Shown here in pieces: positions 22,492 to 60,295 of a stretch of 64,000 nucleotides of DNA (its first letter is position 1; the number at the start of each line of letters is the position of its first letter). The translations under genes were made by a program, and so were the position numbers. The notes below the pieces were generated by a model, which was not told the origin of the DNA, did not search any database, and worked only from the letters and a program-made list of their open reading frames with translations. This DNA comes from Imbricaverruca yamaguchii. Taxonomy: Eukaryota; Arthropoda; Thecostraca; Neoverrucidae. Location of the stretch: positions 261,001 through 325,000 of the forward strand of contig JAOTOL010001566.1 of assembly GCA_034440575.1 (NCBI GenBank), given 5' to 3'.

Positions 22492-22494
22492 CCA

Positions 22495-28685: not shown

Positions 28686-28844
28686 TCACGAGACGACACA
28701 TGCCTGCGGCCCGTCGGTGGTGTCGCCGTCGGCGGACGCCGTCAGCAGGTGGTGCACCACGGCGCGCGCCAGGTAGCCGGCCGTGGCCGTCGGCGCCAGC
28801 TGGAAGAAGCCGCTCAGGTCGGCGGCGCTGCCGGAGCCGCCCTC
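28686..28844 (-). CDS. PHKB: PHKB terminal coding exon M with CaaX C-terminus (residues 635-686)
   Basis: 159 nt, phase 0 in, ending TCG TGA at 28686. Acceptor CCGGCCGACAG|GAGGGC. It encodes [18 protein letters not shown], then [16 protein letters not shown] and [10 protein letters not shown]. The pattern 'D...FY...P.G..GYL..AV...LL' plus a terminal CaaX box agrees with the family, whose alpha and beta subunits are C-terminally prenylated. CVVS has Ser at the last position, which usually favours farnesylation. No convincing minus-strand AATAAA was found in the next kilobase, so the 3'-UTR end is undefined. Confidence 0.92.
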   Translation of the reverse strand, partial: EGGSGSAADLSGFFQLAPTATAGYLARAVVHHLLTASADGDTTDGPQACVVS

Positions 28845-31800
28845 CTGTCGGCCGGGTCAGGTCAGGTCAGTGCTGCCGACGGCCAGCCGGTGGATGCGGG
28901 ACAGCGGGCAGTGTCGGTGTCAGGCGGTAAGTGTCGGGGTCCATTGGGCAGTACTGGGTCCAGCAGGCAGTGTCGGGGTCCGCCGGCAAGTGTTGGGGTC
29001 CGCTGGCCAGTGTCGGAGTCCGCCGGCAAATGTCGGGGTCCAGCGGGCAGTGTCTGGGCCCAGCGGGCAGTGTCGGGGTCCAGCGGGCAGTGTCGGAGTC
29101 CGCCGGCAAGTGTCGGGGTCCAGCCGGGGTGCGGCAGTGTCGGGGTCCAGCAGTCAGTGACGGGGTTCGCTTGGGGGCAGTGTCGGGGTCCAGCGGGCAG
29201 TGTCGGGGTCCAGCGGGCAGTTTCTGGGCCCAGCGGTCAGTGTCGGGGTCCGCCGGGCAGTGACGGGGTCTAGCTGGCAGTGTCGGAGTCCGCCGGTCGG
29301 TGTCGGTGTCCGCAACCAAGTATTTAGGGCCATCAGTCACTGCCGAAATCCGTGAATGACGCGAGACCTCGATATTGGCTGCGGGCTGGAGAAGCGCCGA
29401 GGTCCGCTGATCGGCAACTGACCGGCAGATACTGACCGATACTGACCGGCAGATACTGACCGATACTGACCGGCAGATACTGACACTGACCGGTGGGCCC
29501 CGACACCAGCTGACGGCTAGTGTTGCGGCCCCTTAATCAGTGTTTGAATTCATACCCAAGTGTTGGAATCTTCTAGTCACTGATCGGTGGGCTCAAATAC
29601 CCGAGTGGCGGACGCCAACACAGGCCGGTGGTCAACATTGGATCACTCAATGCTTCAGTTGGTGTGTCGGGATATCCAGGCCTGGCGACGGATTCCCGGA
29701 CCGACCGGTGCGGACCGACACCAGGGCCAAAACCCAGCTGTCGCGGTCACACGTTGGGGACACTATGCGGCGTCGGGAGCGTCGGTCGGTAACTGGACCA
29801 CCCAGAGAACTGATGCACTAGCCCAACATTAATTGGCAAGGTTCCCAAATACTGAGTGGAGGAGCCCAATGTCGACTGGCCAACGTCGGAACCCGTCAGC
29901 CACTGACAAGACTGACCAGCGCTGGTCATGTGGGTGAAACTGCGGTCGAGAGTAAGTGAGTGATTGAGTGAGTGAGTGAGTGAGTGAGTGAGTGAGTGAG
30001 TGAGTGAGTGAGTGAGTGAGTGAGTGAGTGAGTGAGTGAGTGAGTGAGTGAGTGAGTGAGTGAGTGAGTGAGTGAGTGAGTGAGTGAGTGAGTGAGTGAG
30101 TGAGTGGTGAGTGAGTGAGTGGTGAGTGAGTGAGTGAGTGAGTGAGGGAGGAGTGAGGAGTGAGTGAGTGAGTGAGTGAGTGAGTGAGTGAGTGAGTGAG
30201 TGAGTGAGTGAGTGAGTGAGTGAGTGAGTGAGTGAGTGAGTGAGTGAGTGAGTGAGTGAGTGAGTGAGTGAGTGAGCGAGCGAGCGAGTGAGTGAGCGAG
30301 TGAGTGAGTGAGCGAGTGAGTGCGTGAGCGCAGTCTGAGAGCCGAGGCCGTGACAAACCACCAGAGAATAAACGTCGCGGATTAAAAACAAACCGAGTGC
30401 CACCGACCTTCAGGTAGAGGGCGTGGGCCTCATCCACCATTTGCGAGAGCTCGATGCAGCCGCGGAAGCTGAGCTCGGGATTCCGCTCCAGGATGGTGGC
30501 GATCAGCGCGATCAGCTGCGACGAGAGGCGGAGCGAGCGGCCGTCACACACCGACAACCACCACCAATCCACATCGACAACCACGGCCCAGTCACGGAGC
30601 ACACCCGACACCGCGACGCGAACTGCGGGGCAGCGCAGCCGTGACCACCGTTTGAAGGGCCGCACACGACACGCCAGTCGTGCCGTCCGCTGGCTGACAC
30701 ACCGTCCGACGGCGGCGCCACGCGCAGCTCCGGCCAGCAGTGCCGCCCCGGCCCACCTGGACAACCTGGCGCAGTTGCGGCCCACCGCCGGCCAGCAGTG
30801 CCGCCCCCGACCCCGACCCACCTGCACGACGATCTGGCGCAGCTCGGGCTGCGCGCACTGCGCCAGCATGTCGTTGACGAGGATGGCGAAGCGCAGCTCG
30901 CTGACGGTCATGTCGGTGACGGTGGGCAGCTGCGGCAGGTGGCGGCTGCCGATGGTCAGGCCGCCGGCCGTCCGACCCAGCATGAACCACACCGAGCTGT
31001 GCAGGTTGCGCGGACTGCGGCCCAGACTGCCGTCTATCTGGCGCTGCTGCCGCGGGCTGATGCTGCAGCACACGTCCACACAGGTCAGGTCAGGTCAGGC
31101 GGGACCGCGGCCGGCCGACGGCCGCACGGCAGGCGGCGGCCATGCTCAAGAAAATGGCGACGCAGGAAGATGAACGCCAGGTTCTGATACGAAACATCCA
31201 ACTGGTGGTCCTGATGCATGACGGCGTTGTCAACCTCCACGCCGATTGGTCTCGGGTAGACTCGAAAATTCCGCCGGTTGTGGGGTTCGAACCAACAATG
31301 TTGTGATCAAGAGGCGCACATTTTAACTGTACCTTTATAGATGTCTCAGTAACTTGGCTGCAGAAAAAAAAACATTGAACAGACATTAAACTCTGATGAT
31401 TCAGATCAACGTTTTGGTGAAAGCCGCACAGACAAATTAGGGGCTGGCGGAGCACTAGATGTCCTGAAACAGTCCACTTCTCAAAGAATATTTCAAAATC
31501 AGGTTACAAGCTGACAACGTTTTCTTCACAATGCATGTTCAAAGCAAAAACAAACAGCTCTTATATGCCAAACCTATCACCTCTTTCACAGAATATACTG
31601 TAATTGAATGCGCCCAGTGGCCCAGCAGGACATAGCGAACATTGTGGTCGGATCGCCCAATAGCCCAGCAACACATAGCGAACATTGGGGTCGGAACGCT
31701 GAATAGCCCAGCAGTGTACAGCGAACATTGGGGTCGGAACGCTGAATAGCCCAGCAGTGCACAGCGAACATTGGGGTCGGAACGCTGAATAGCCCAGCAG

Positions 31801-34800
31801 TGCATAAGGAATATTGGGGACGGAACGCCGAAAACCCCGGCAGTATATAACGAGCATTGAAGACAGAGCGCCAACTCACACGCTGGTGCCAGACGTGTCC
31901 TGAATAGTCCGCCGACACGCCTGGTCTCGTGCACAGTAACGGTCATGTCAAGCTCTCCACCGTCCGCACCGGCCGTCACTTCGACATACTACTGACAACT
32001 GAGACTTGCACCAGCTTCCAGAAGACAACAAATAAAATTAAGCTATTAGTCCGGCCGTAACGCTTTTCAGGAGCCAGTAACCTCCCAGCGACGGGGCGTA
32101 CAACCACGATATAAACACGGTACAAGCACTGATTAGAGGGCCCCTGACCCTCCAAACCCAGCGACGAGGCGTATAACCACGGTATAAGTACTGACGTGAA
32201 GCCCCTGGCCATCTACACCCAGCGACGGGGAGTATAACCAGGGCATAAACACTGATGTGAAGCCCTTAATTCTCTAAACCCAGCGACGAGACGTAGAGCC
32301 ACGGTATAAGCACTGACATGAGACCCCTGATCCTCTAAAACCAACGACGAGACGTAGTTAGTTATTAGGGTTTTAGGGCGCATCAACTACAGTGGTTATA
32401 CGAGACGTAGAACCACGGTATAAACACTGACGTGAAGCCATTAATTCTCTAAACCCAGCGACGGGTCGTAGAGCCACGATATAAGCACTGACGTGAGACC
32501 CCTGATCCTCTAAACGTTGTACGACTTAATTTGCAAGGTCCTAGCCTGTCTGATTGTCTCCATGAAGCATTTTTTTACAGGGCCATATATCCGAGCTTTA
32601 TGGGTCTCGCATCCAATGATATTTTTGAACCGTGCAGCATCTACAGCGAGGCATATGAGTATTGTATATGATGCATAACTGTGTAATGTTCTGGAATAAG
32701 ATATCACGTGCTTAGGTGGGGTTCATTTAATTATTGAGCCTAATTATATTAATTTGTGCGGTGTCACAGATAACTGTAATGTCTGAATATAGTCATTTAA
32801 TTAAGCAGAATACGTCATAAGGAAAATCTGATGCACCGAGGACGTCGAAATCCTTCCAGATTTGAAAAAGGAAGTAGATCGATAAGCCTACCTTGTGACC
32901 CATCGAAAATGTGTTTTACATGTTTGCAGCACAGTGGAAAACAATAATCTGGAGCAATGGGAGTGAAAGTAACACCAGAGTGGAATCCAAATTTCCAAGG
33001 CAAAACTATGGGCGCTGTATAACCACTGCAGTTGATGCGCCCGAAAACCCAAATAACTAACTAACTCCAAGGCAAAACTGGGGTGAACAATTTAATTTGT
33101 CATTGAAATGGTCACCATTGCGATGCCATAGTCTACACACATTTATAACATACAGCACCTACACACTGGAAAAATTAACCGCAATATAAAAAGTTGGTAA
33201 ATAGACAAAAAGTGAGAACTACGATTTTCCAATAGACCAAGCGTACCTCCAGAGATAACGGCCCAGGTCAGAGAACTCTCATACCCTGACAAAATAATTG
33301 TTCATGCAATTAACTGCTATTCAGAACCCACCCACTGAAAGGGTAGGAATACGCACAAGAACACCAATTGCTTTCCTTTGCACCTAAACATCCGGTGGCT
33401 GTATGACAACTCAGATAAGTGAAGCCATTTTACCATACTCGATCACTGGCAACATACAGCCCAACCTGTTCGCTCTGGGTGTTCGTTGTTTTGTTTATTG
33501 GGGTTTAGGGGCGCATCGACTGAAGTGGTCATGCAGCGCCCATTCGCTCTGGGTGTGAAATCCGAACAATCCGATTGATACACACGTACAACAATTGTCA
33601 AATGTAGCAAGCGACCACTCAGGATAGCAATCTCAATGACAAGCATAGGCAGACGGATGTTTCCGGTTGCGTGTTCCGGGGCGCACAGCTGCTGAGTGCT
33701 GCCCTCAGGCACCAGCGCATCGGCAAGGCATGCATCTTCCGGGCCGTGGCCGACAGTGTTACTGTGTTGTACGTTAGAGAGCATTGCTGTACCTCATGCA
33801 GATGCCTAGACGTCGAAATGCAGAAGCAAATACATCCATCGCCGGCAGGTGGACACACGGAGGAGGACTGAGAGCCGATTATACAAGCCGTGGACATGTT
33901 CAGAAACATTCCGTGGGACCGAAACGCGGTATAGTTACACTGTCCAACATAATGGAATGCGTGTGGGAAATGTGCACCATGAAACGGCACGTGTATTCTT
34001 AGTTAGGCAGGCAAAGCCATCGGCTGGGGAACAATGTGCCGGTGAAACTTAATGGGTTGAATCTCGCAGAAGATCCACTTGCCAGCGCGTGGTAGTCCTG
34101 ATTCTCCTGCCGGGACGGTATATGCGAACACCGCAGGAGAGGTTATTTTACGGCTAAAACAGCTGCGAGGCGAACCAAATCATGCACAACCAGTTCGCCA
34201 ACTACACTATGCAAAACTTCCGCAGCAAACTCACTCGTTACTACAAAAACCATAGCCATAGCCCAGTCTAGATTATCTCTATGCATACAAATGATCCCCT
34301 GAACCAGCCGAGGTGTGGATGAGACCATACTTCATACATACGTCATATCATCCCAGCACGCGAATACAGCCGACGACGTCACAATCCACCACGGTTCACA
34401 CCCATCACAGCTGAACAGTGACCAGACTGCAGCCTCACCTGACAGTGGAGCCCTGCGTTACCCCGGGCTCACACCCACCACAGCTGAGCAGTGACCAGAC
34501 CGCAGCCTCACCTGACAGTGGAGCCCTGCGTTACCCCGGGCTCACACCCATCACAGCTGAGCAGTGACCAGACCGCAGCCTCACCTGACAGTGGAGCCCT
34601 GCGTTACCCCGGGCTCACACCCATCACAGCTGAACAGTGACCAGACCGCAGCCTCACCTGACAGTGGAGCCCTGCGTTACCCCGGGCTCACACCCACCAC
34701 AGCTGAGCAGTGACCAGACCGCAGCCTCACCTGACGGTGGAGCCATGCGTTACCCCGGGCTCACACCCACCACAGCTGAACAGTGACCAGACCGCAGCCT

Positions 34801-37800
34801 ACCTGACAGTGGAGCCTGCGTTACCCGGGCTCACACCCATCACAGCTGAACAGTGACCAGACTGCAGCCTCACCTGACGGTGGAGCCCTGCGTTACCCCG
34901 GGCTCACACACATCACAGCTGAGCAGTGACCAGACTGCAGCCTCACCTGACAGTGGAGCCCTGCGTTACCCCGGGCTCACACCCACCACAGCTGAACAGT
35001 GACCAGACTGCAGCCTCACCTGACGGTGGAGCCCTGCGTTACCCCGGGCTCACACCCACCACAGCTGAGCAGTGACCAGACTGCAGCCTCACCTGACAGT
35101 GGAGCCCTGCGTTACCCCGGGCTCACACCCACCACAGCTCAGCAGTGACCAGACTGCAGCCTCACCTGACAGTGGAGCCCTGCGTTACCCCGGGCTCACA
35201 CCCACCACAGCTGAACAGTGACCAGACCGCAGCCTCACCTGACAGTGGAGCCCTGCGTTACCCCGGGCTCACACCCACCACAGCTAGCAGTGACCAGACC
35301 GCAGCCTCACCTGACGGTGGAGCCATGCGTTACCCCGGGCTCACACCCACCACAGCTAGCAGTGACCAGACCGCAGCCTCACCTGACGGTGGAGCCCTGC
35401 GTTACCCCGGGCTCACACCCACCACAGCTGAACAGTGACCAGACCGCAGCCTCACCTGACGGTGGAGCCCTGCGTTACCCCGGGCTCACACCCACCACAG
35501 CTGAACAGTGACCAGACCGCAGCCTCACCTGACAGTGGAGCCCTGCGTTACCCCGGGCTCACACCCACCACAGCTCAACAGTGACCAGACCGCAGCCTCA
35601 CCCGACAGTGGAGCCCCGCGTTACTCCAGGCTCACACCCACCACAGCTCAACAGTGACCAGACTGCAGCCTCACCTGACAGCGGAGCCCTGCGTTACCCC
35701 GGGCTCACACCCACCACAGCTGAACAGTGACCAGACCGCAGCCTCACCTGACGGTGGAGCCCTGCGTTACCCCGGGCTCACACCCACCACAGCTGAACAG
35801 TGACCAGACCGCAGCCTCACCTGACGGTAGAGCCCTGCGTTACCCCGGCTCACACCCATCACAGCTGAACAGTGACCAGACTGCAGCCTCACCTGACGGT
35901 GGAGCCCTGCGTTACCCCGGGCTCACACCCACCACAGCTGAACAGTGACCAGACCGCAGCCTCACCTGACGGTGGAGCCCTGCGTTACCCCGGGCTCACA
36001 CCCACCACAGCTGAACAGTGACCAGACCGCAGCCTCACCTGACAGTGGAGCCCTGCGTTACCCCGGGCTCACACCCATCACAGCTGAACAGTGACCAGAC
36101 CGCAGCCTCACCTGACGGTGGAGCCATGCGTCTCCAGCGACAGCACGTTGTGCAGCAGCGAGCGCACCTCGTTGGGCGCCATCTCCGAGATGGCCTGGCT
36201 GCGGCCCTCGATCTGACTGTACAGCTCCATTGCCTGCAGCACCCAGCTGCGCCGGACGACCGCGTCAGTTGGCGGTGGTCCCGGGCGGGTGGGTGGTGGT
36301 GGCGGCGCTGCCACATGGCCCAGCGAGACCACACTCCCACGATCGGTACCAAGCGAGGCCACACTTCCCAAATATTTGTTTGTACAAATGTAGTAGATTG
36401 TTAAACTTTCTAATCGATTACGCTTCTTAGGAATGCTTCAACACTAACAAACATTAAATATCCAACCAACCTCACAGTAAATCTACATCATTCCATTCCC
36501 AACAAGCCGCCTCACCGGCTTGGTAAAGATGCACTCGCCAAGTGCATTCCATCGCTATTTTTGCTATACTTTTACACCGCACCTCCAGAAGTGCAATACA
36601 ACAATTGAATCCGGCACTAGCACGCCTACTTAAAACACGCCGTTGCCCCAAACTACATAGACCAGGTATTATTATCTGGGCGCAGACTTGGTTAACGACG
36701 AGAAGTCGGCCTGTGTACACCTCAGATATCATACACCCTGATGGTGTATATTCTGGCCAATGTTGGCAGTGACAATGGGTGTATGAAACACCTCCAGCCC
36801 TGAGTGCACAGTACGCACCTCACCCTGAGGAATACGCATCGGATCCTGATGACGAGTACAAGCAACGCGCCAAATCCTAACAAGTGCCTGACGTGGCTGA
36901 GCACATGGGACGAACCCGGATACGTAGGACGCACCTGATCCCTGACACGCAAGACGTACCCGGATACACGGGACGTACCCGGATACATGAGACGTATCCA
37001 GATACATGGGACGTACCCGGGTACATGGGACGCACCCGGATACATGGGACGTACCCGGATACATGGGACGCACCCGGATACATGGGACGTACCCGGGTAC
37101 ATGCGACGTACCCGGATACATGGGACGTACCCGGATACATGGGACCCACCCGGATACACTGGACGTACCCGGATGCATGGGACGTACCCGGACGGGCGGG
37201 ACGTACCCGATCCTGATGGTGAGTATGCCGGCGAACAGGTCGGGCCGGGTGAGGATGAGGCGGCCGCAGCACAGCACCACCTCCTGCTGCAGCACCGCCT
37301 GCACCACGTCGTGCGGCCGCACGAAGCCGAAGAACAGCCGCTCGATCTCGGCCGGCGTCATCGGCTTGTCGATCACCACCTCCGGCTGGCCGATCACCCC
37401 GATCGTCGACTGGACACAGCGGGCGGTACTGAGGCGACTGTGTCAGCGGGGGTGGGGGTACACTGGACACAGCGGGCGGTACTGAGGCGACTGTGTCAGT
37501 GGGGGTGGGGGCACACTGGACACAACGGGCGGTACTGAGGCGACTGTGTCAGCGGCAGTGGTGGCACACTGGACACAGCGGGCGGTACTGAGGCGACTGT
37601 GTCAGCGGGGATGGGGCACACTGGACACAGCGGGCGGTACTGAGGTGACTGGGTCAGCGGGGGTGGACACTGCCAGTGGGGTCTAGGCGACTGTGTCAGC
37701 GGGGGGGGGACACTGGACACAGCGGGCGGTACTGAGGCGACTGTGTCAGCGGGGGTGGGGGCACACTGGACACAACGGGCGGTACTGAGGCGACTGTGTC

Positions 37801-40800
37801 AGTGGGGGGGGGGGCACACTGGAAACAGCGGGCGGTACTGAGGCGACTGTGTCAGTGGGGGTGGGGCACACTGGACACAGCGGGCGGTACTGAGGCGACT
37901 GTGTCAGGGGGGGTGCACACTGGGACACAGCGGGCGGTACTGAGGCGACTGTGTCAGCGGGGATGGGGGCACACTGGACACAGCGGGCGGTACTGAGGCG
38001 ACTGTGTCAGCGGGGGTGGGGGCACACTGGACACAGCGGGCGGTACTGAGGCGACTGTGTCAGCGGGGGTGGGGGCACACTGGACACAACGGGCGGTACT
38101 GAGGCGACTGTGTCAGCGGGGGTGGGGGTACACTGGACACAGCGGGCGGTACTGAGGCGACTGTGTCAGCGGGGGTGGGGGTACACTGGACACAGCGGGC
38201 GGTACTGAGGCGACTGTGTCAGTGGGGGTGGGGGTACACTGGACACAGCGGGCGGTACTGAGGCGACTGTGTCAGCGGGGGTGGGGGGCACACTGGACAC
38301 AACGGGCGGTACTGAGGCGACTGTGTCAGTGGGGGTGGGGGCACACTGGACACAGCGGGCGGTACTGAGGCGACTGTGTCAGCGGGGGTGGTGGCACACT
38401 GGACACAGCGGGCGGTACTGAGGCGACTGTGTCAGTGGGGGTGGGGGAACACTGGACACAGCGGGCGGTACTGAGGCGACTGTGTCAGCGGCAGTGGTGG
38501 CACACTGGACACAGCGGGCGGTACTGAGGCGACTGTGTCAGCGGCAGTGGGGGCACACTGGACACAGCGGGCGGTACTGAGGCGACTGTGACAGCGGCAG
38601 TGGTGGCACACAGAGCGGGCGGTGTCGCAGAACGACCCGCGTCAGAGACGAAGGGACGGTAGGCCGACGTGACACAGCCAAGAGTCGGCGCCACAACAAA
38701 GAGTGGGCGTCACGGCGGGGAGGGGATGCTCGGTGCCATGGCGGCCGGTGTTGTGATCAGATGGGGAGGAGAGGGGACAGGCCTATGCGTGGTGTGGGGT
38801 CACGATTTCAATGCTAGGGGATACACAGCGAGGCGACAACGCTGACTCGGTGAGCAGCACTGCACGACGTCGTCAGTGATCACCACATCCACCTGAGCTC
38901 GGCGTCGCAATGTCACCGGACCGCCGACGGAACACACCAATCTCCCGAAGTGGCACACACGAGACACACTGCCGGCGACAAAGCCGGGCCGAGGCGAAAC
39001 ATCCAACAGGGAAGCAGCCAACGAAAACAACACACATCCAGGCCTAAGCACACAACCTACATGTTTACAGCAAACCGTGAGCATTGAATCTCCCACCTCC
39101 TGGCTGGTAAAACATCATGCAACCACATAAAGTACACTAATGCACCAGGCAGCCAAAGAAAACACATTAGGCTGGGGTGAGCGGTGTCACATGTTCCCAT
39201 CACTCGGCGGCGTTACATCTTCCCGTCACTCGGCCGAGTCACGTTCTTCCATCACTCGGGGGCGTCACGTGTTCCCATCACTCGGGGGCGTCACGTGCTC
39301 CCATCACTCGGGGGCGTCACGTGTTCCCATCACTGGGGCGTCACTTTCCATCACTGGGGCGTCTCCCGTCACTGGGGTCACCCCATCACTCGGGGGCGTC
39401 ACGTGTTCCCATCACTCGGGGGCGTCACGTGTTCCCATCACTCGGGGGCGTCACGTGTTCCCATCACTCGGCGGCGTTACATCTTCCCGTCACTCGGCCG
39501 AGTCACGTTCTCCCATCACTCGGGGGCGTCACGTGCTCCCATCACTCGGGAGCGTCACGTGTTCCCATCACTCGGAGGGCGTCACGTGTTCCCATCACTC
39601 GGGGGCGTCACGTGCTCCCATCACTCGGGGGCGTCACGTGTTCCCATCACTCGGGGGCGTCACGTGTTCCCATCACTCGGGGGCGTCACGTGCTCCCATC
39701 ACTCGGGGGCGTCACGTGCTCCCATCACTCGGGGGCGTCACGTGCTCCCATCACTCGGGGCGTCACGTGTTCCCATCACTCGGGAGCGTCACGTGCTCCC
39801 ATCACTCGGGGCGTCACGTGTTCCCATCACTCGGGGGCGTCACGTGCTCCCATCACTCGGGGGCGTCACGTGCTCCCATCACTCGGGGGCGTCACGTGTT
39901 CCCATCACTCGGGGGCGTCACGTGTTCCCATCACTCGGGGGCGTCACGTGCTCCCATCACTCGGGGGCGTCACGTGTTCCCATCACTCGGGGGCGTCACG
40001 TGCTCCCATCACTGGGGGCGTCACGTGTTCCCATCACTCGGGAGCGTCACGTGCTCCCATCACTCGGGAGCGTCACGTGTTCCCATCATTAGGGGCGTCA
40101 CGTGTTCCCATCACTCGGGGCGTCACGTGCTCCCATCACTCGGGAGCGTCACGTGCTCCCATCACTCGGGGGCGTCACGTGTTCCCATCACTCGGGGGCG
40201 TCACGTTCTCCCATCACTCGGGGGCGTCACGTTCTCCCATCACTCGGGGGCGTCACGTTCTCCCATCACTCGGGGGCGTCACGTGTTCCCATCACTCGGG
40301 GGCGTCACGTGTTCCCATCACTCGGGGGCGTCACGTGTTCCCATCACTCGGGGGCGTCACGTGCTCCCATCACTCGGGGGCGTCACGTGTTCCCATCACT
40401 CGGGGGCGTCACGTGTTCCCATCACTCGGGAGCGTCACGTGCTCCCATCACTCGGGGGCGTCACGTGTTCCCATCACTCGGGGGCGTCACGTGTTCCCAT
40501 CACTCGGGAGCGTCACGTGTTCCCATCACTCGGGGGCGTCACGTGTTCCCATCACTCGGGGGCGTCACGTGTTCCCATCACTCGGGGGCGTCACGTGCTC
40601 CCATCACTCGGGGGCGTCACGTGTTCCCATCACTCGGGGGCGTCACGTTCTCCCATCACTCGGGGCGTCACGTGCTCCCATCACTCGGGGGCGTCACGTG
40701 CTCCCATCACTCGGGGTGCGTGCCGCGCGTGCCCTCATAGGGGCGTCACGTGCTCCCATCACTCGGGGGCGTCACGTGTTCCCATCACTCGGGGCGTCAC

Positions 40801-43800
40801 GTGTCCCAAGCGTCACGTGTTCCCATCACTGGGGGCGTCACGGTTCCCATCACTCGGGGGCGTCACGTGTTCCCCACTGGCGACGTGCCCACTTCACGGG
40901 GGCGTCACGTGTTCCCATCACTCGGGGGCGTCACGTGTTCCCATCACTCGGGGGCGTCACGTGCTCCCATCACTCGGGGGCATCACGTGCTCCCATCACT
41001 CGGGGGCGTCACGTTCTCCCATCACTCGGGGGCGTCTCGTGCTCCCATCATTAGGCGGCATTATTCTACAGACGTGCAGAGCCCACCAGTGCAACTCAGT
41101 GGAACCACTGTATGCCAATGGCCGCTTCGTTGCACTCAAGAGGACCTTCAGGCGTGGCTGACTCGCTTGCCGAGGAACATTGTGGTGACTGATCTGTGTG
41201 GTGTCGGGGTGGCTGGTTATTTGCCGCTGTAAGGGGGTGGTACAGGGTAACTGACCTGTTTGCCGGTGAGTAGCGGGGTGCAGGGGTGCCTGACCTGTTT
41301 GCTGCTGTACAGTGGTGTGCAGGGGTGACTGACCTGTTTGCCGGTGTGTAGCGGGGTGCAGGGGTGACTGACCTGCTTGCCGTCGTGCAGTGGTGTACAG
41401 GGGTGACTGACCTGTTTGCCGTCGTACAGTAGTGTACAGGGGTGACTGACCTGTTTGCCGCTGACCAGGATGGCGGTCAGGTACGGACTGATGCTGTCCA
41501 CAACTCTGCCCAGCAGGCTGGAGCAGTACCGCAACACTCCCCAGCACCGCAGCCGGCCCGCCTCACTGTTCAGCTGCACCAGGTGCTGGTATACTGCCGG
41601 GGACAGGTCAGGTCAGGTCAGGTCAGTGGCCTCACTGTTCAGCTGCACCAGGTGCTGGTATACTGCCGGAGCCAGGTCAGGTCAGGTCAGGTCAGGTCAA
41701 TGGCTTCACTGTTCAGCTGCACCAGGTGCTGGTGTACTGCCGGAGCCAGGTCAGGTCAGGTCAGGTCAGGTCAGGTCAATGGCTTCACTGTTCAGCTGCA
41801 CCAGGTGCTGGTGCACTGTCTCGGAGTCAGCCCAGTGCTAACAACTGCTGGGTCTGCTCACTCGCCACAAGCGCACTAATTTGGTTGTCGCCACAAACAA
41901 AGGTGGGTGGGAGTAAACCTCTTGGCGTATAAAAACCATGCGTGCTGAGGCAGCATGAAAATGGTCAGTGCACAGCCGAACTCAGTGCCTTACTTTCGTT
42001 CCTTGGGTCCATACTGAGCAGACAGGTCAGGTCTTCCCCTTTAGCAGAAGCGTACCATTTGAGTTATAATATTTGCCGTCTGGTGTGTCAAGTGTCATCT
42101 CGGAGCTCGTCACAGGAGCACGAGCTAATCGTCTGTGCAGAAGGCTGTCCAAAACCATAACCGACACCACCAAGAACATCACCACGACACCGAAGCCTTG
42201 ACCTCGGCACTATTGGTGAATACGCCGCAGTGAAGGGAGATGAGCTACGCCCCACGACTGCCCAAACTTGACACAAAATTATCTTGTTGACGTGAAGGCA
42301 TCCTGATGCCAGACATTGCGCGCGAAACCGGCTCCGACATCGTGTGATATTAATCTACTTGTGTCAGCTTCGTGGTATATGTTTTGGAACAGATGGCTTC
42401 AGCTTCGTAGCACTTTTAACTGCCGACTTCTGCTTCGACTTTGGCTTCGTGACATGTTGAGCTGCTCCCTTCAGTTTGTTGACATATTGTGACTTCAGTT
42501 TCAAAGTCATAAGCCTGGCTTGGTGTGTTCTCATTAAGTGTAGTTCGGAATCAGAGCGTAGGCAGATGTGTAATGGATGCATTCTCCCTAGCACACTTGC
42601 ACACTTCTCCTCCGGTTACGTGAAATGCCCTCCTGGTATCTCCCCTCAGGGGTAACTGTTCACTGAGCCCCCACTCAGACCACTCCCTCTAGGTCAACAC
42701 CCACTTCTCAGCACTTCTGGGAGGATCCTATGATGGGTGACCGGCCGCACAATTGCTTATGGACTTCCACATTCCAACTCGAAATTGCTTAGAACAATTA
42801 ATCAGTCACTTGTTCTCTAGCGACTGCAAATGTCATCCTCACTTCTCAAGTGAAGAAATATTGCATTCAGCTTCGGGTTTACACGACGAACAGGATTAGC
42901 TATGCTATAAGTTCAAAACTGGTCGGTAACATGGCCACGTATTGTTAAAATTTGCGATAAAAAGACCATACGCCTCGAGCGTAAGAAGAACAATATAATC
43001 GTTACTCATGCGAGCAATAAAAGGCTCCACTGAAAAACCAGCCAAAGAAGGGAGCCTGAATCGCATGAACCAGTTGCTTATTGAGAAAGGATATCCAATA
43101 CATGTCGTTCGCCAGACTGCCATAACTTGCATGCTGAGTGAACGTACACCTCAAGTGGGAAGTAAAAGAGGTGAGAGATACCAAAAACAATAAAAAAGAG
43201 TATAGCACAAATTCCTTATACATAGACGGAACACCTGTACATAGACGAAACACCTGTAAAAATGGCTGGTGGAATTACAAAAGGACCAAATGTATTGCAG
43301 AAAGTCTCTTTGATGAGCGATCCCACCATTAAGGACAAATTGGTGCATCTGGTAAACAATTGTATAACACAGGGCATTGCGGATTAGAAGGATATGATTG
43401 CCTATAAATAAATGTCGTATATAATTGACGTGCACAATAAGCGAAAAACATTACGAAAAGGCGTTCTGCATAGGGAAAAGCAAACGTACGATACACTACC
43501 TGTTTAATGAACAAATTGGAAATACCCGCCAATAGAAACTTAATCCCAGTGAGCACATAGTTGGAGAGCACATCAACACTTAACATTCTTACGTACATAT
43601 GGCATTCAGAATATGACTTCTCATCGCGAATCGCGACAACGTTGAGATAAATAAAATGCATGAGTCTATGTGCATTCGTGACACGCAGCCACCTCCCAAC
43701 ACCATGACCAGCCCTAGGCCCCAATCAAATACGCTAGCATAGATACATTTTGTGTGACACGCACATGACCAATGTAGCACCCAAGCAAACGTACATATGC

Positions 43801-46800
43801 ATGTTTTATACGGTTGTACATGATGTGGCGAACCATGCTTCGGTGTAAGTAAGGTGTTTCCAGCTTTAATTAGGCTTGTTTTGCACAATGTTGTCAATCT
43901 ATGTTTAAAAAAGTAAAACAGGTCAGAGACGAACAGCTTCGGCATCATGAAACCACACATTTTGTCATTGGCTTCGGCTTTGGCTTTGTGGTATTCCTTG
44001 GCCCTTGGTTTCGGCTTCAACTTCGTGGAATTTTAATCCAGGTATCCAGATTAACTGTTGGTTCTATGTCTGCAGTACCATCGGGCTGGTGCCAGCACCT
44101 GTGGTGCCGTTCAGGTGGTGTCCAGTACCTGTGGTGCCATCCGGGTGGTATCCAGTACACATGGTGCCGTACAGGTGGTGTTCAGTACCTGTGGTGCCGC
44201 GCAGGTGGTGTCCAGTACCTGTGGTGCCACACGGTGGTGTCCAGCAGTGGTGTCCAGTACCTGTGGTGCGTTCAGGTGGTGTCCAGTACCTGTGGTGCCG
44301 CACAGGTGGTGTCCAGTACCTGTGGTGCCGTACCAGGTGGTGTCAGTACCTCGGTGGTGTCCAGTACCTGTGGTGCCTCCGTTGTGTCCAGTATCTGTGG
44401 TGCCGCACAGGTGGTGTCCAGTACCTGTGGTGCCGCGCAGGTGGTGTCCAGTACCTGTGGTGTCCAGTATCTGTGGTGCCGCGCAGGTGGTGTCCAGTAC
44501 CTGTGGTGCCGCGCAGGTGGTGTCCAGTACCTGTGGTGTCCAGTACCTGTGGTGCCACACAGGTGGTGTCCAACACCTGTGGTGTTCAGTATCTGTGGTG
44601 TCGCGCAGGTGGTGTTCAGTACCTGTGGTGCCACACAGGTGGTGTCCAGTACCTGTGGTGTTCAGTACCTGTGGTGCCACACAGGTAGTGTCCAGTACCT
44701 GTGGTGTCCAGTACCTGTGGTGTCGCGCAGGTGGTGTCCAGTACCTGTGGTGCCACACAGGTGGTGTCCAGCACCTGTGGTGTTCAGTACCTGTGGTGCC
44801 GTCCAGCTGGTGCTCGCAGCCGTGCCGGTCGTACAGCGTCTTCAGGATCAGACTGCGGCCGCGCAGTGTGGTGGTCCGACGCCACAAGTGGCCCAGCTGG
44901 TCGTCAGACTGCTGCTGCAGCTCCTGACAACCGTACACCACACGTCAGCCGACCAGACACACCCGGCCCGTCCGCTCCCGCCAGACTGGTGCTGCAGCTC
45001 CTGACAAGCGTACACCTCACGTCAGCCGACCAGACACACCCGGCCCGTCCGCGCCGTCTGCCCTGCGACGCGGCCACGCCAGACTGGTGCTGCAGCTCCT
45101 GACAACCGTACACCACACGTCAGCCGACCAGACACACCCGGCCCGTCCGCGCCGTCTGCCCTGCGACGCGGCCACGCCAGACTGGTGCTGCAGCTCCTGA
45201 CAACCGTACACCACACGTCAGCCGACCAGACACACCCGGCCCGTCCGCGCCGTCTGCCCTGCGACGCGGCCACGCCAGACTGGTGCTGCAGCTCCTGACA
45301 ACCGTACACCTCACGTCAGCCGACCAGACACACCCGGCCCGTCCGCGCCGTCTGCCCTGCGACGCGGCCACGCCAGACTGGTGCTGCAGCTCCTGACAAG
45401 CGTACACCACACGTCAGCCGACCAGACACACCCGGCCCGTCCGCGCCGTCTGCCCTGCGACGCGGCCACGCCAGACTGGTGCTGCAGCTCCTGACAACCG
45501 TACACCTCACGTCAGCCGACCAGACACACCCGGCCCGTCCGCGCCGTCTGCCCTGCGACGCGGCCACGCCAGACTGGTGCTGCAGCTCCTAACGACGACA
45601 TAGGACCCTACACTCGACTGACTAGCTGACTGGTTATTGGGCTATAAGCCTTGAGGGGCACGCACATTCTAGGGTGTAAGTTCTATTTTTACTTGTGTAG
45701 TGTAGGTTCTATGTTTACTGCCTGTTTACTTGTGTAGCTTAAGGTATACTTAAGCTACACAAGTGGGGCGTGTGACTGAGTGGTTAGATGACCTGACCCG
45801 CTGTCAGGTGCGGGTGATGTAGGAGTGGCGAGTTCGGACCCACGCATCTCGATTACTCTCGGCACGCACACACTACCAGAATTGCGACAGGCACTACTTT
45901 GGTGCAAACTGTCTAATAAGCTACTTTTCTAACTCCAACGATTTGAAATCATACCGTGGAAACCATATCGCCGAGAACAACCTTCCTCGATTAGGTAGAA
46001 TCTTAGAGATGCCTTGTAATACAATTGCCCACCACACCAAAGCCAGCTGCACACATGCGAGGAACAGGTCAGCTAGTGCAGTACCTTGGTCTGAGCTTAG
46101 GGCGACCTGACCGACCTCTAGGTGACCTCGGGTCTGACCTGCTCGGTGAGAGGCTCCATCTCGGTGTAGGCGATGGCCGTGGGGATGTCGGTCAGGCTCT
46201 GGTAGCCCACAGACTTGCCCACCACCTCCTTGAACGGCACCGTCTCCAGTCCCGTGTGGTCCGTGGTCTCCATGAAGTCCAGGTGCTCTGCAGCCGACAC
46301 AGAGATGGCGGTGGAGACGGCGGCAGCCGAGCGCGCCGCACTGGATGGTCGTTCGGTTCGTATCGATCGAAGTTTAGCTGGTTAGCTAGATTTATTGTCA
46401 GCTATATTCGGCACACACGCACACATCCGCGTCCTGCCGCCCCCGCCCTGACTGTATCCGCCCTCACATCACAATCAGCCCCCAGTCTATACTATAACCT
46501 GCGCTCTAATGACGGACGTGGAGTGCAGAATGGGAGTGACGAAATCGCATCGGCGGTCTCAGAACATTCAACTGAAAGAAGAAAGCTGTACCACCTCCCC
46601 TCGCCTGTAGGGTCCGCGAATGTCCGGTGTGCAGCCTAGCAAAGGCAATGGTCAGGTAAATGTCCACAAAACAAACATTATGCGGCTGCTGTGCCGTTGT
46701 GGAGGCCCGCACACAGACCAGCTGACACCGTCTACCGCCAGCATAACACGGCTGCTGTGTTGTTGTGGAGGCCTGCACACAGACCGCCTGACACCAGCTA

Positions 46801-49800
46801 CCGCCAGCATAACACGGCTGCTGTGTTGTTGTGGAGGCCTACACACAGACCGCCTAACACCAGCTACCGCCAGCATAACACGGCTGCTGTGCTGTTGTGG
46901 AGGCCTACACACAGACCGCCTGACACCAGCTACCGCCAGCTACCGCCAGGATAACACGGCTGCTGTGGTGTTGTGGAGGCCTACACACAGACCGCCTGAC
47001 ACCAGCTACCGTCAGCGTAACACGGCTGCTGTGTTGTTGTAGAGGCCTACACACAGACCGCCTGACACCAGCTACCGCCAGCATAACACGGCTGCTGTGC
47101 TGTTGTAGAGGCCTACACACAGACCGCCTGACACCAGCTACCGCCAGCATAACACGGCTGATGTGCTGTTGTGGACCGGCACCGTGCGCCCTGACCCACT
47201 GACCGGTGCAGGAGGACGACATCAGGTTCTGCAGCCGGCCCACGCGCACCTTGACACCCTCGCACGAGCCGGTCTTCAGCATGGCCAACAGGTCCACCAT
47301 CTTGCGGAAGTTTGCGTCTCTGCATGGGCGAAGACACGTGTTAGTGTGCGACCAGTTAGAGTGTCAACACCACTCGCCAGGCGACGGTCCTCCTGTACAG
47401 CCTGCTGCAGTGCCCGACCTCAACGCCACGATAAGCTGTTTCTTTTCTCACTCAAATGAACACGAACAGCACCAGCTGAACCGTAACCCGGCACCCTAGC
47501 AGCGCGTGAACGAGTATTGGCTGGATGTGTATGTACATCCTCAGGCATGCGACCTCTATTGAATGATGAGCAAACACGCTTATAGTCGACCATAAGTTAT
47601 TTGATGATGATTATTATTATTGGGGTTTTATGGTGCGTCAACCCATGTGGATTATAATGCACCCACATCAGTTATTTTAACCGTAGAACTATGCTATACA
47701 ACAATCTATACAACCACGAGCATGCCAAGTACAAAATCGCATGGATAGTTTCACCTCAGCATTTACTCATGGATGCAACAACCAGCTTACTGCCCCCACG
47801 CTCAACACCTATGTCTCACTAGTCTGCCTCCTAATGGTGAGGGGAGAGACACACTCCATCAGCCCCGCGATCATCAACAGAGCAAACCTAAACAGCTTCA
47901 GCTACCATCCGCAAACCAGCCCATCGCCCTCGTCAAGCTCATACCCCGCCAGCCCCGAGCACCACCACCACCGTCGGTGCTGGGCTCGCTTGGCCCACCT
48001 CATGTGCGTCTCCTTCATGATGAGGCAGCAGGTGGGCCGGCCCGACAGTCGCCAGTAGCGGCCCACGAACTGGATATCCGACTTGATGTCGTCGATGAGC
48101 AGCGCCATGTCGTGGTTCAGGTAGAAGTCGGTGCTGTCGAAAATCAGCGGGTAGCAGAGCACCGTCTGGCCGGATATCCGGTACACCTGCCGACCGGGAC
48201 ACAGCCACAGTTAGGAGCCCTGCAACGGAGGGGACCCGGCACTGACCGGTCAGAGGTCCGGCACACCTACCGACAGGAGCCCTGCAACGGAGGGGACCCG
48301 GCACTGTCCGGTCAGAGGTCCGGCACACCTACCGACAGGAGCCCTGCAACGGAGGGGACCCGGCACTGTCCGGTCAGAGGTCCGGCACACCTACCGACAG
48401 GAGCCCTGCAACGGAGTGGACCCGGCACTGTCCGGTCAGAGGTCCGGTACACCTACCGACAGGAGCCCTGCAACGGAGGGGACCCGGCACTGTCCGGTCA
48501 GAGGTCCGGCACACCTACCCACAGGAGCCCTGCAACGGAGTGGACCCGGCACTGACCGGTCAGAGGTCCGGCACACCTACCGACAGGAGCCCTGCAACGG
48601 AGAGGACCCGACACTGTCCGGTCAGAGGTCCGGCACACCTACCGACAGGAGCCCTGCAACGGAGGGGACCCGGCACTGACCGGTCAGAGGTCCGGTATAC
48701 CTACCGACAGGAGCCCTGCAACGGAGGGGACCCGGCACTGTCCGGTCAGAGGTCCGGCACACCTACCGACAGGAGCCCTGCAACGGAGGGGACCCGGCAC
48801 TGTCCGGTCAGAGGTCCGGCACACCTACCGACAGGAGCCCTGCAACGGAGGGGACCCGGCACTGTCCGGTCAGAGGTCCGGCACACCTACCGACAGGAGC
48901 CCTGCAACGGAGGGAGGACCCGGCATGTCCGGTCACGAGGGTCCGGGTCCGGCACTACCGACAGGAGCCCTGCAACGGAGGGGACCCGGCACTGTCCGGT
49001 CAGAGGTCCGGCACACCTACCGACAGGAGCCCTGAACGGAAGGGACCCGGCACGTGGTCCGTACGACAGGACCGGCACACCTACCGACAGGAGCCCTGCA
49101 ACGGAGGGGACCCGGCACTGTCCGGTCAGAGGTCCGGCACACCTGGCGACAAGCACCCAGCCACCGTCAGGAACCCTGCAATGGAGGAGACCCGGCACTG
49201 TCCGGTCAGAGGTCCGGTACACCTACCGACCGAGACACACACACAGTCACGTGCCCGGAGGCGCATCGGTGCCCAGAGTCAAATTTGCCGAGCAGGACTT
49301 GGCGACCACACTCGACACCTGGTGTAGGGTGACTGCAGGGTAGCGTCGCAGGCCCCATGGCCACCACCACCACCCAGCTGACTGGACATGACTGCCGTGC
49401 GTCATAGTGGTCTTATGTATGGTCGCCAGATGTAAGGTAATAATGAATAATATTGATCGCCGGATGTAAGGTAATAATCAATAATATTGGTCGCCAGATG
49501 TAAGATGTGGGAACCAGCATAGTTGGATGTCGAAGTTCCCCATGGAAATAATATCGTTTAAAATTATCAATTCCTTGCAGTTAAATTTTGAGCCAATATC
49601 GTACTGATGACTACCAACTCGTTTCTTTTGAGACGTACCTGAAAAAGACAACGGTGAAAATACCTATTCTACCAACTGGCATTGCATAACAGATCACAAA
49701 ATAGGTATTCCCTTTACCTGGAGTTCAGCTACGACACACTCGTGTTCACGATCCGCTATGGTGAGAAAAAGCACGATACTTAAAATTAGACAGTGTTCTA

Positions 49801-52800
49801 AACCAGGCACGTAAACTTCATAAACACCCACGAAGAACCACGACGCCGATATTTATCTGGGAAAGACGTCGGTTCAACGTTCACAATCATCCTATTTCAC
49901 GAGGAGTGTATGCGTGCAGTGGAGGGTTAGCAGCCCTGCCGGCCCTTGCTGTGCTGAGCCACGTGTGTGTGTGTGATTGTGGTTTTAGGGCGCATCGACC
50001 ATGGTTGGTCATTTAGCGCCCATGTGCTGAGCCACGTCACCTTGCTGGTGCCGAGAGCGCCGATGGGTCGCGGCGGGCGACCCTCCAGACCCAGCTTACG
50101 GTTCACGCCCAGACTCCTGTACACCTGCAACGGGGTCACGAGGGTCACAGAAGTCGCAGGTGTCAAAACATGTACGATATCGTCACAGAAGTCGCAGGTG
50201 TCAAAACATGTACGATATCGTCACAGAAGTCGCAGGTGTCAAAACATGTACGATATCGTCACAGAAGTCGCAGGTGTCAAAACATGTACTATCTACAGGT
50301 GTCAAAACATGTACGATATCGTCACAGAAGTGGGTCACTTACGATATCGTCACAGATGAAGTCGCAGGTTGTCACAACGTGTCAAAACATGTACGATATC
50401 GTCACAGAAGTCACAGGTGTCAAAACGTTTACGACATGGTCACAGACGTTCAAAGAATGGTCACAGGAATTGAAAACATGCTCACAGGAGTTGAAAGTAT
50501 GGTCACAGGCGTTCAAAACATAGGAGTTGAAAGTATGGTCACATGACTGTTCAAAATATGATTGCAGGCGCTGGAACACCGGGTTACATGAGCCACATGA
50601 CAGCGCCACCGACACAAACGTAGCTGGCAGTGAAATACTGGGGCCAGAGCTTCCGAGATCATAACACAGATCGCCAGTACCGGCCTGGGATGCAATATCG
50701 CCGCCTCATATCGTGGGGTGCAATACCACCGCCACTGCGACGTTCCCGCCCCATGTTATAGCCGGGGAAAACCTGCAGCAGAACGTGGTCGATGAGCTTC
50801 AGCAGAAAATGGCGGCAACGAACAACATGTACCGAAGAAAGAAATGTCCTTGGGATATCCTACTTCCGTGACCGGACCTACCTCACCTGCCCCAGCTGAC
50901 GCTGTGACCGGACCTCACCTGCACCAGCTGACGCCGTGACCGGACCTCACCTGCACCAGCTGACGCTGTGACCGGACCTCACCTGCCCCAGCTGACGCTG
51001 TGACCGGACCTCACCTGCACCAGCTGACGCCGTGACCGGACCTCACCTGCTCCAGCTGACGCCGTGACCGCCTCACCTGCACAGCTACGCCGTGACCGAC
51101 CTCGCTGACCGTGACCGGACCTCACCTGCACCAGCTGACGCCGTGACCGGACCTCACCTGCACCAGCTGACGCCGTGACCGGACCTCACCTGCACCAGCT
51201 GACGCTGTGACCAGATCTGCACCGGCTCCACCTCCTTGGGCGTCTGAGACTGGACGCCGTACGTGGCCAGCATGGCCTGAAGCCGACGCGACTCGGCGAT
51301 CAGCACCACCTGCACCACCAGGTCGCTGGCGGTGCCCTGGCGGCGCAGCGGGTCACATCAGATCATAGGCGGCAGTGTTAAAATAATAGTTTTCCGTTAG
51401 GCGTGAGCTGTCTAAATGCGTATGGCTGTATTTTGAAATTAGCAATGGCAACATCCAATGAAAATGTTGTTTCAGTCTATCACTCAATCTTGAGCCAATA
51501 GTATAATGATAAGAGCATGCTTTTCATTAAATTTTGTGGACACTAACTTAGGGATACCTATGCTAACGATAACGATTGCGCTACCATGGTATCGACAGAT
51601 GATAACGTTTAACAGATCAGATCATAAATAATATATGCACTTGGAATTGTGTAACGAGATGCTTGTCACACGAGATACTACATGTGTATCACAGTCAGAA
51701 ATGGTGAATATAAGGATGATACTCATTCACGAAATACTAGTAGAAACAAGTCATGGAGACTTCATAAGCACACATCAACAAGCAACAAGCGCTTTTGACA
51801 AGGATGTCTATTCAGTGATCTGAAAGTGGTATATTCCACCCAGGATATTATATACAGTATATTTCACGAATAATCTATCACTGGAGGGAGTTAAATTGAC
51901 ATTTCATTAGGTGGTGTTTTCCACCTATTTCTTGAAAAAATGCAGCACTGATAGGCGGGGTACTCTCACGGCACATTGGGTCACATCAGACCATAGGCGG
52001 GGTACGCTCACGGTATAGCGGGTCACATCAGACCATAGGCGGGGTACTCTCACGGTATAGCGGGTCGCATCAGACCATTGGCGGGGTACTCTCACGGCAT
52101 AGCGGGTCACATCAGACCATATAGACCATGGCGGGGTACTCTCACGGTATAGCGGGTCACATCAGACCATAGGCGGGGTACTCTCACGGTATAGCGGGTC
52201 ATCACATGGGGGATGGACCATAGGCGGGGTACCTCACGGTATAGCGGGTCACATCAGACCAGCGGTACTGGGGGATCTCACGGTATAGCGGGTCACATCA
52301 GACCATAGGCGGGGTACTCTCACGGTATAGCGGGTCACATCAGACCATAGGCGGGGTACTCTCACGGTATAGCGGGTCACATCAGACCATAGGCGGGGTA
52401 CTCTCACGGCATAGCGGGTCACATCAGACCATAGGCGGGGTACTCTCACGGCATAGCGGGTCACAGACCATAGGCGGGGTACTCTCACGGTATAGCGGGT
52501 CACATCAGACCATAGGCGGGGTACTCTCACGGTATAGCGGGTCACATCAGACCATAGGCGGGGTACTCTCACGGTACATTGGGTCACATCAGACCATAGG
52601 CGGGGTACTCTCACGGTATAGCGGGTCACATCAGACCATAGGCGGGGTACTCTCACGGTATAGCGGGTCACATCAGACCATAAGCTGGTACTCTCACGGT
52701 ACATTGGGTCACATCAGACCATAGGCGGGGTACTCTCACGGTATATTGGGCCACATCAGACCATAGGCGGGGTACTCTCACGGCATAGCGGGTCACATCA

Positions 52801-55800
52801 GACCATAGGCGGGGTACTCTCACGGCATAGCGGGTCACATCAGACCATAGGCGGGGTACTCTCACGGTATAGCGGGTCACATCAGACCATAGGCGGGGTA
52901 CTCTCACGGTATAGCGGGTCACATCACATCAGACCATAGGCGGGACTCTCACGGTATAGCGGGTCACATCAGACCATAGGCGGGTACTCTCACGGTATAG
53001 CGGGTCACATCAGACCATAGGCGGGGTACTCTCACGGTATAGCGGGTCACATCAGACCATAGGCACTCTCACGGTATAGGGGAATGGCGGGTACTCTCAC
53101 GGTATAGCGGGTCACATCAGACCATAGGCGGGGTACTCTCACGGTATAGCGGGTCACATCACACCATAGGGGGGTACTCCATCAGACCATAGGCGGGGTA
53201 CTCTCACGGTATAGCGGGTCACATCAGACCATAGGCGGGGTACTCTCACGGTATAGCGGGTCACATCAGACCATAGGCGGGGTACTCTCACGGTATAGCG
53301 GGTCACATCAGACCATAGGCGGGGTACTCTCACGGTATAGCGGGTCACATCAGACCATAGGCGGGGTACTCTCACGGTATAGCGGGTCACATCAGACCAT
53401 AGGCGGGGTACTCTCACGGCATAGCGGGTCACATCAGACCATAGGAGGGGTACTCTCACGGTATAGCGGGTCACATCAGACCACAGGAGGGGAACTATGG
53501 CGGTGCAAAGGGTCACTTGAAGTCACTGGCCGTGTCCTGAAGATATAGCTGGTCACGCCGGATCATTGACTGTGCCTCGAGGGAGCAGCGGGTCACACCC
53601 GAACACTGATCCACAAATCGGGTGGGTCGCGGTCGGTCGGGTGAGGTCGGGTTAGTTCGGGTTGGATCGGATTTGGTTAGATCGGGTCGGGTCGGGTCAG
53701 ATGAACTTCGTCGTATATACATGTGATTGGAATCGTTCGTGCGTCGCATTTGCCCGTGATAATGCCACTGATAGCTGAAGTTTTACAGTTTCGCTTCATC
53801 CAGAGTACGCTTTCCAACTCACTCCTCGTGTAGTTTGATGCGCATATTTTCGCAGTTCCTACATTTTGCACGGTATTAGATCAAGCAAATCCGTGACAAT
53901 TAAGTGCATAATATATAACCATCATAAACAGACGAATTCATGGAATAGGGCACCGGTAGGCGGCCTTTCCTTGTGTGTAGTTTTGCGCGCGAATTGGGAA
54001 AGGGGATGGGGTGTAATTATGTCGAATCTGATGCACCGCCTTGTCCCAGCATAGAGGCACTATCTGACCACTACAAGACGAAGAACTTTGGGTTCTTTTA
54101 CGGCGCATTCAACCTCCAGGTCATACAGCGTCGCCAACCTCTCACGTCGATTGGTCGCGGGTGGACTCGGTAAATGTCGTCGGTTGCGAGATTCGAACCC
54201 ACAATCTTGCGGCCCGATGCTCTACCAACTGAGCTACCACGTCCCCTCTGACCAATACAAGTGACCCCGACCACTACCAGAGCACCGAAAGTATACGAGG
54301 TCGGGAGCAGAGCGCAGCCTCGCGAAACGTTCTTGGACATCGGACATCTAACAGTTCCCAGTCCAACTAATCAACAGAGTCGGCCCACCGTCCCCCAGTG
54401 TCCTGGCTCGTCACGTGCATCTTTCGGCACGCTCACTGCCGCCCTGTGCACGCCCGATGTTACCAGTGATAGTATCCTAACCAGATGTGCTCTTGGATCG
54501 TGAGTGCAGCCTTGATCTCGAAGAGTACATCACACAAAACGTCGCTTGAATCATGTACCTAAGGATACTACTACATGCTTTGACATACTGAGCCTGATAT
54601 CTAGTCACACTTAAGCTTAAATGATACATTATGGAAAATATTCCGATGAGCTGCACCCGTATCGTGCATTTTGACACAGCTTTTAATGGCACATCATTTT
54701 TACCCGGATCTTGAAGGATCCTTCCATAAAACGAGCATCGAATATTGAACACGGACCAAGCAAAACTATTTGGCGTACTTTCTGAGCAACAAAAACAAGT
54801 TAGGAACGGTATCTTTTTTTAAACTAGAGCCTGAATCATTACTTACAAATTTAACTGGGAATAAAACAGACTTTTGGCCTGGATCTTGCAGAATATTTCG
54901 TGAGACAAAAACTTCAGACCTTCGACCGAACAAAACTTCTCTGGGTACAACCCAGACGGACATTCTTAGTTTCGTGAGTTACTTGTTAACCCGCGCCGTC
55001 TTTCCGGTCAGGTCCTCCCACCCGGTCTCGGGGGGGGGGCGGTTGAAGACCCCCTCTAAAATCCGAACTAAGCGTCGTACGAAAACGAAAGAGGCGTCAT
55101 CGGAAAGCGCTCGACGAGTAGGGTCCGGATCCACCCTCCAAAATAATTTTCCACCAAAAGTGACGTCACCAGGGGGGCTAGATATTCACGACTTTTCACG
55201 GTTTACATTATGTTTTGGACTCTGGGGAGTTCATTTTGGGGGATTTATGAAAAAACAAAATGTATTTGGAATGAGAAAAGGACAGCGAAATCGGCCAGGG
55301 CTATAATTTTTTTTTGGCCGCCCACAAAATAAACATTTCATTTTTTTCAAAATTTCAAAATTGAGTTTTCAATTTTTCTTTCATTTTCCTTTTCCAATGG
55401 GTAGAGCAGACCGAGAAACGTTGTTGGAAGTCAACTTTCCGTAATAAAAAATGCTTACTTTAGCCAGAATCCTGTATTTGAACTGCAATTTGGCAAATAC
55501 GCAAAAGTTACATGTAGTCAAAAACGAAAAAAATGAAAAATTCCACTCGTACGTTTTGTTGCATCCGTAAAGATAAGCAAACGCTGAAAGTTTCATTAAA
55601 ATATCTGTATCCGTTAAAGCGTGACGACTGGTTGAATGTTTTTGGAAGTGACCTCACTTGACCTTGACGAACTCGTTGACCCTAGATGACCTGACCTAAA
55701 AATTTTGAAACAGCATGTCAAATTGTTGTGGGAAGAGGTATGTCAAATTTGTGCGCGCTGCCGCGCGCTGTTCGTCTGCTATCCGCGAAAAACCTGAGGG

Positions 55801-60295: not shown

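Follow-up and report, generated by a model that had tools for sequence, protein, structure and literature searches.

Mirages are minisatellite-like tandem duplications of exon-intron boundaries, and the founding paper on them is that of Canestro et al. 2002, as cited in later amphioxus papers. The available text of PMC3087553 describes them in the amphioxus globin genes BflGb6 and BflGb9, cites amphioxus Adh3 and other loci as further cases with length instability, and gives RT-PCR results suggesting that Adh3 and the globins are regularly spliced despite their mirages. Another mirage, in amphioxus PGBD5, appears with reference to Adh and TnC in the excerpted text of PMC3902484. Among the papers listed in the literature searched, and judged by titles and abstract openings, these two amphioxus reports are the only ones to deal with arrays of junction copies, and none reports such arrays in barnacles. 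The main texts of two barnacle genome papers contain neither “tandem repeat” nor “minisatellite” (PMC8270832) and neither “tandem repeat” nor “satellite” (PMC8917513).

Our analysis of a stretch of 64,000 nucleotides (the window) from the barnacle Imbricaverruca yamaguchii shows that the splice edges of PHKB carry arrays that are real, dense and of a known type, the amphioxus mirages, here found in an arthropod and crowded into one gene. Like the PHKB arrays, amphioxus mirages, as the available excerpts present them, occur at both 5' and 3' boundaries, vary in unit length and contain AG/GT in many units but not all. The same excerpts also reveal differences. The amphioxus host is a cephalochordate and the PHKB host a barnacle; for amphioxus they describe a single affected boundary per gene in two globin genes and a pair of repeats in PGBD5, whereas a single gene, PHKB, has 11 affected junctions and as many as 25 copies at one of them; and units measure 10-72 bp at Adh3 and 150-160 bp in the globins, compared with 19-98 bp in PHKB. 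Splicing and instability have been reported for the amphioxus mirages, whereas the PHKB arrays are known from one sequence. Two further systems share part of this organization, to judge from the portions of the papers available. The dual-specific sites of UBC (PMC10809524) lie in tandem units with AG|GT, as at some PHKB arrays, but the UBC repeats encode protein and the intron spans a whole number of units, whereas the PHKB repeats are intronic and their introns also hold other sequence. In intron gain by tandem genomic duplication (PMC4974935) the duplication carries splice signals, as in PHKB, but the PHKB introns consist of more than the duplicated segment, and what is seen in them is the copying of existing junctions, with no new intron shown.

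PHKB lies on the minus strand, and the window contains its 3' part (28686..60295), with further 5' exons beyond the window. As the original prediction had it, 25 junctions are visible: thirteen exons (A to M), separated by 12 introns that are all GT-AG, join to one open frame of 685 residues (the whole Pollicipes protein has 1088). Concatenated, the exon peptides match the solved PHKB chain 8jfk_B with an E value of 2.9e-147. The identity of the spliced protein is 89% with that of Pollicipes pollicipes and 85% with that of Amphibalanus amphitrite; among the best 120 of 863 matches, the remaining 118 reach at most 55%. The alignment with the predicted Pollicipes protein has no gap at any of the 12 exon joins, and in the Amphibalanus alignment no gap appears until three residues past the last join. 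The gap-free Pollicipes alignment, the single open frame and the GT-AG introns together imply that the exon edges are sound. Intron L-M contains a long (GAGT)n microsatellite at 29950-30328 (TRF).

Table 1. Positions in the window of the PHKB exons and of the repeats at their junctions. Score, best alignment of the junction in its own intron; core count, copies of the 16-base junction core in that intron; overlap, bases of exon covered by the array according to TRF.
Feature	Position	Strand	Score	Core count	Overlap	Remarks
PHKB exon A	60295-60042	-
PHKB exon B	51336-51190	-
PHKB exon C	50124-50041	-
PHKB exon D	48186-47999	-
PHKB exon E	47319-47204	-
PHKB exon F	46287-46139	-
PHKB exon G	44923-44791	-
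PHKB exon H	41593-41451	-
PHKB exon I	37409-37207	-
PHKB exon J	36246-36112	-
PHKB exon K	31062-30822	-
PHKB exon L	30515-30408	-
PHKB exon M	28844-28686	-
42-bp array, unit resembling exon B acceptor region	51951..53496	-	21	0		0 close copies
Stretch with two dispersed-repeat pieces, 133 and 59 bp	51373..51775	.				70% and 78% identical; between B acceptor and 42-bp array
32-bp array with exon B donor	50880..51212	-	48	9	23	TRF
62-bp array with diverged copy of exon D acceptor	48213..49151	-	30	15		TRF
98-bp array with exon G acceptor	44905..45590	-	43	7	19	7 decoys
30/46-bp array with exon G donor	44087..44812	-	36	25	22	25 copies, GT in 22
74-bp array with exon H acceptor	41563..41812	-	46	2	31	2 close copies
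39-bp array with exon H donor	41220..41463	-	32	7	13	7 copies, GT in 6
53-bp array ending at exon I acceptor	37409..38611	-	26	17	1	17 copies, AG in 15
19-bp array with short copy of exon I donor	36953..37192	-	21	2		2 close copies
73-bp array with exon J donor	34396..36131	-	43	23	20	TRF 23.9 copies
Exon K donor, one extra copy 65 bp into intron	30750..30850	-	20	1		not a TRF call

Twenty-four junctions, flanked by 25 bp in each direction, were aligned with their own intron and with the 11 other introns; the acceptor of exon A, which faces an incomplete intron, was checked only by counting copies of the 16-base junction core with up to four mismatches, and had none. Eleven of the 24 aligned junctions, exactly those that the original prediction had named, possess a copy in their own intron with scores of 20-48, whereas the remaining 13 score 9-15. 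They comprise six donors (B, G, H, I, J and K) and five acceptors (B, D, G, H and I), so both 5' and 3' boundaries are affected, as had been claimed, and the predicted unit lengths of 19-98 bp are those that TRF gives at the junction arrays. For every one of the 11 the score in its own intron exceeds its own maximum among the 11 foreign introns, which bears out the claim that each array arose from its own exon edge: the arrays are of local origin and contain the junctions. Eight strong arrays surpass the foreign maximum by at least 12 points, and the margins are narrow at the B acceptor (21 vs 17) and the K donor (20 vs 14). Among the remaining 13 junctions, only the C donor tops its foreign maximum (15 vs 14). 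Foreign-intron maxima over all junctions range from 12 to 23, with 21 for the B donor, 19 for the K acceptor and 23 for the M acceptor, which is without an array copy; against the reverse strand of their own intron, junctions score 8-17. Three of the eleven, the donors of K (20) and I (21) and the acceptor of B (21), therefore lie not far above the highest chance scores. Core counts (Table 1) are 1 at the A donor and at the K acceptor and 0 at the remaining junctions, against means of 0.00-0.75 in shuffled introns.

The listed alignments of all 11 junctions span the junction, although just a single base of the exon is included at the I acceptor, and the repeat unit spans the boundary strongly at the donors B, G, H and J and at the acceptors D, G and H. 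According to TRF, the D acceptor and I donor arrays end 26.5 and 14.5 bp away from the exon, so that they cross the junction by alignment only. The array at the I acceptor copies the intron side and is almost wholly intronic, and the I donor has only a short stretch in common with its 19-bp unit. The single extra K donor copy is as predicted, and so is the divergence of the B acceptor, whose likeness to the 42-bp unit is found chiefly in the bases immediately before the junction, on its upstream side (by eye, the 16-base core differs from the TRF consensus at about 7 positions). The B acceptor is separated from the 42-bp array by 614 bp that include the dispersed-repeat pieces of Table 1. A relative of this dispersed repeat, with its pieces in the same order, occurs at 63617-64000; one end of it is 62 bp from an array at 63170-63555, and the matching end of the first copy is 36 bp from the B acceptor, where the flank of the acceptor resembles the 42-bp unit. 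Other arrays occur 20-58 bp from the A donor (59418-60015), the E donor (46683-47175), the C acceptor (50144-50289) and the M acceptor (28902-29311), with no copy of the junction detected in them.

The arrays are biased toward exon edges. When the 23 arrays of 28686-64000 were placed at random, with exon overlaps of more than 35 bases barred, 0.66 were expected to touch or straddle a junction and 7/23 do (P 2.5e-6); 12/23 lie within 30 bp of one (1.17 expected, P 2.4e-10). Base composition contributes to this bias, as GC content is 0.668 in exons, 0.621 in arrays and 0.490 in the rest of the introns. Using windows matched to the unit length and GC of each of 22 arrays, 2.3-2.5 junction-containing arrays are expected (1.17 if GC is left unmatched) and 9/22 are found by alignment (P 6e-5 to 9e-5); with TRF coordinates, 7/22 cross a junction (P 0.003-0.004 under the GC-matched null). 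Hard GC cut-offs behave differently: the fraction of eligible 60-80 bp windows that cross a junction is 0.19-0.24 at a GC of at least 0.55, 0.25-0.34 at 0.60 and 0.33-0.46 at 0.65, which for 22 arrays amounts to roughly 4 to 10 crossings. The excess left after GC thus depends on the matching method, hard cut-offs leaving less or none. A pure GC effect is insufficient when unit length and GC are both matched, with a nearly four-fold excess remaining, and comes closer with hard cut-offs. The claim that random birth of minisatellites in introns fails to explain the pattern therefore withstood uniform placement but was overstated, since GC matching about halves the excess. A sizeable part of the edge pattern is the birth of GC-rich arrays at GC-rich exon edges; a further excess beyond GC is probable, in one gene and under a hypothesis formed on that same gene.

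The array list used in the placement and GC tests was merged by hand from the TRF output for 28686-64000, dropping overlapping rows and four low-scoring ones: 37260-37322 (within exon I, score 68), 43219-43258 (score 73), 53618-53662 (score 53) and 60930-61070, a stretch rich in adenine. The last three of these regions touch no junction, and including them would slightly weaken the excess. The four-base repeat at 29950-30328 entered the placement and GC-content tests and was left out of the GC-matched test, in which the B acceptor array was scored as non-crossing and the K duplication, having no TRF call, was absent.

Outside PHKB, TRF identifies large arrays at 5087-6231 and 10971-11499. The 50-bp unit of the array at 10971 contains CACAGGTATG, which looks donor-like by eye, and no gene was identified there. 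Nine of the 389 ORFs of at least 45 residues starting left of 28650 were compared with Pfam without a match, and the last PHKB exon gave none either. An interspersed repeat occurs in opposite orientations at 21681-22496 and 54981-55825 (84% identical over 846 columns) and is probably a transposable element. Copies of a short dispersed repeat, about 80% identical and with a tRNA-derived look by eye, are found at 54080-54238, 61914-62071 and 31224-31313.

Many of the copied junctions are decoys as strong as the real sites, as scored with a simple matrix built from PHKB's own splice sites. Intact decoy donors equal or exceed the real donor in 9/9 cases at B, none of its nine being damaged, 21/22 at G, 5/6 at H, 21/23 at J (23 by core count), 1/1 at I and 0/1 at K. 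Decoy acceptors do so in 7/7 cases at G and 15/15 at I, and in 0/15 at D, where all 15 decoys retain AG and are weaker than the real site, and 0/2 at H. AG|GT is present in the units at the donors B, G, H, J and K and the acceptor D (9/9 copies at the B donor, 21/25 at the G donor, 5/7 at the H donor, 22/23 at the J donor and 15/15 at the D acceptor) and absent at the acceptors G, H and I. If decoys were used, the predicted product at exon H would gain five whole in-frame units of 13 residues before a stop in the sixth, since the reading frame of the exon continues across the 39-bp units of the H donor array, whereas stops would come after 11 residues at exon B and after 1 at exon J; at G, I and K the predicted read-through stays open over the 300 bases read. 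The copies display no visible coding constraint. Their identity to the real junction on the exon and intron sides, respectively, is 0.89/0.94 at the B donor, 0.91/0.90 at the J donor, 0.75/0.79 at the G donor, 0.79/0.73 at the H donor and 0.90/0.91 at the G acceptor, so that both sides diverge about equally in 5/6 arrays examined, as expected for non-coding copies. The exception is the D acceptor (0.69 on the exon side vs 0.79 on the intron side), whose decoys are more similar to each other (0.92) than to the real junction (0.72); together with the lower exon side, this suggests that the D case is old or less direct.

We consider it likely that the PHKB arrays are mirage-type minisatellites, generated by local tandem duplication that favors GC-rich exon edges and is tolerated. 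A stretch of 19-98 bp straddling an exon edge (or abutting it, at the I acceptor) would have been duplicated in tandem, and its copies then amplified and homogenized inside the intron, whether through slippage, unequal exchange or break repair. Duplication of this sort may be close to neutral because the complete exon retains its adjoining splice site and the added copies end up as intron sequence. Part of the preference for edges would follow from the PHKB minisatellites being mostly GC-rich and from GC-rich DNA being concentrated at exon edges; a further bias toward the edges is probable. The real site would be chosen by its position next to the exon body, via exon definition: the decoy donors of B, G, H and J are mostly at least as strong as the real ones, yet the protein joins are free of gaps against Pollicipes. 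The original prediction had instead offered two explanations, of which the seeding of duplications at AG|GT finds no support, as copies occur at 6/12 AG|GT junctions vs 5/13 others (P 0.70) and 6/7 exon-overlapping arrays reach 13-31 bases into the exon (TRF). The other, selection for an action on splicing, likewise has no backing in the sequence. A version of it in which decoys recruit spliceosome parts or allow unit-by-unit removal via dual AG|GT sites appears quite unlikely to us. It would agree with the AG|GT found in most copies of the four donors B, G, H and J and of the D acceptor, with the enrichment of dual-specific AG|GT introns in human tandem-repeat genes (according to the available part of PMC10809524) and with the open, in-frame read-through at the H donor. 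However, in 131 flank-matched copies from eight of the eleven junctions the splice dinucleotides are conserved no better than their flanks (221/262, 0.84, vs 1616/1834, 0.88; P 0.088), a total that retains 14 ambiguous copies of the G acceptor, 7 of them without AG and probably out of register. The equal drift of most arrays, the acceptor arrays without AG|GT and the fact that most units (19, 32, 46, 53, 62, 73, 74 and 98) are not multiples of three also argue against selection.

The history of the introns offers other explanations. Had they been tiny when the first duplications took place, almost any duplication would have reached an exon edge and insertions would have lengthened the introns later. 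The proximity of 12/23 arrays to a junction, the dispersed-repeat pieces lying between the array and exon B, and the 306-bp intron K-L with its single donor duplication are consistent with such a history, but the mean intron of Pollicipes is 2,077 bp in the available text of PMC8917513, so the shortness would have to be old, whereas several arrays consist of near-identical units; we regard this scenario as unlikely. That the arrays represent aborted or ongoing intron gain through tandem duplication of AG|GT segments, a model proposed from the amphioxus mirages in the available part of PMC3087553, is very improbable given the absence of any preference for AG|GT junctions and the large amount of non-array sequence in these introns. 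Long arrays are hard to assemble, but the ten arrays and the single duplication differ in their units, many of which have diverged, and sit alongside an intact reading frame, so that an assembly artefact of repeats is extremely improbable.

Mirage-type duplication in PHKB thus gives more than 20 decoy donors each at exons G and J, most of them as strong as the real site, which makes this gene a natural experiment on how the spliceosome chooses its sites. The occurrence of an amphioxus-type structure in an arthropod suggests that mirages can arise independently and, if they do, their causes (GC content, intron history and mutation bias) could be compared across lineages. Tentatively, barnacles might undergo a genome-wide expansion of exon-intron edges beyond what GC predicts and independent of that in amphioxus. 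If so, their splice sites would face long rows of equally strong decoys and would have to be chosen by position, and barnacle edge expansion would offer a natural setting in which to test how splice sites are chosen and how introns arise.
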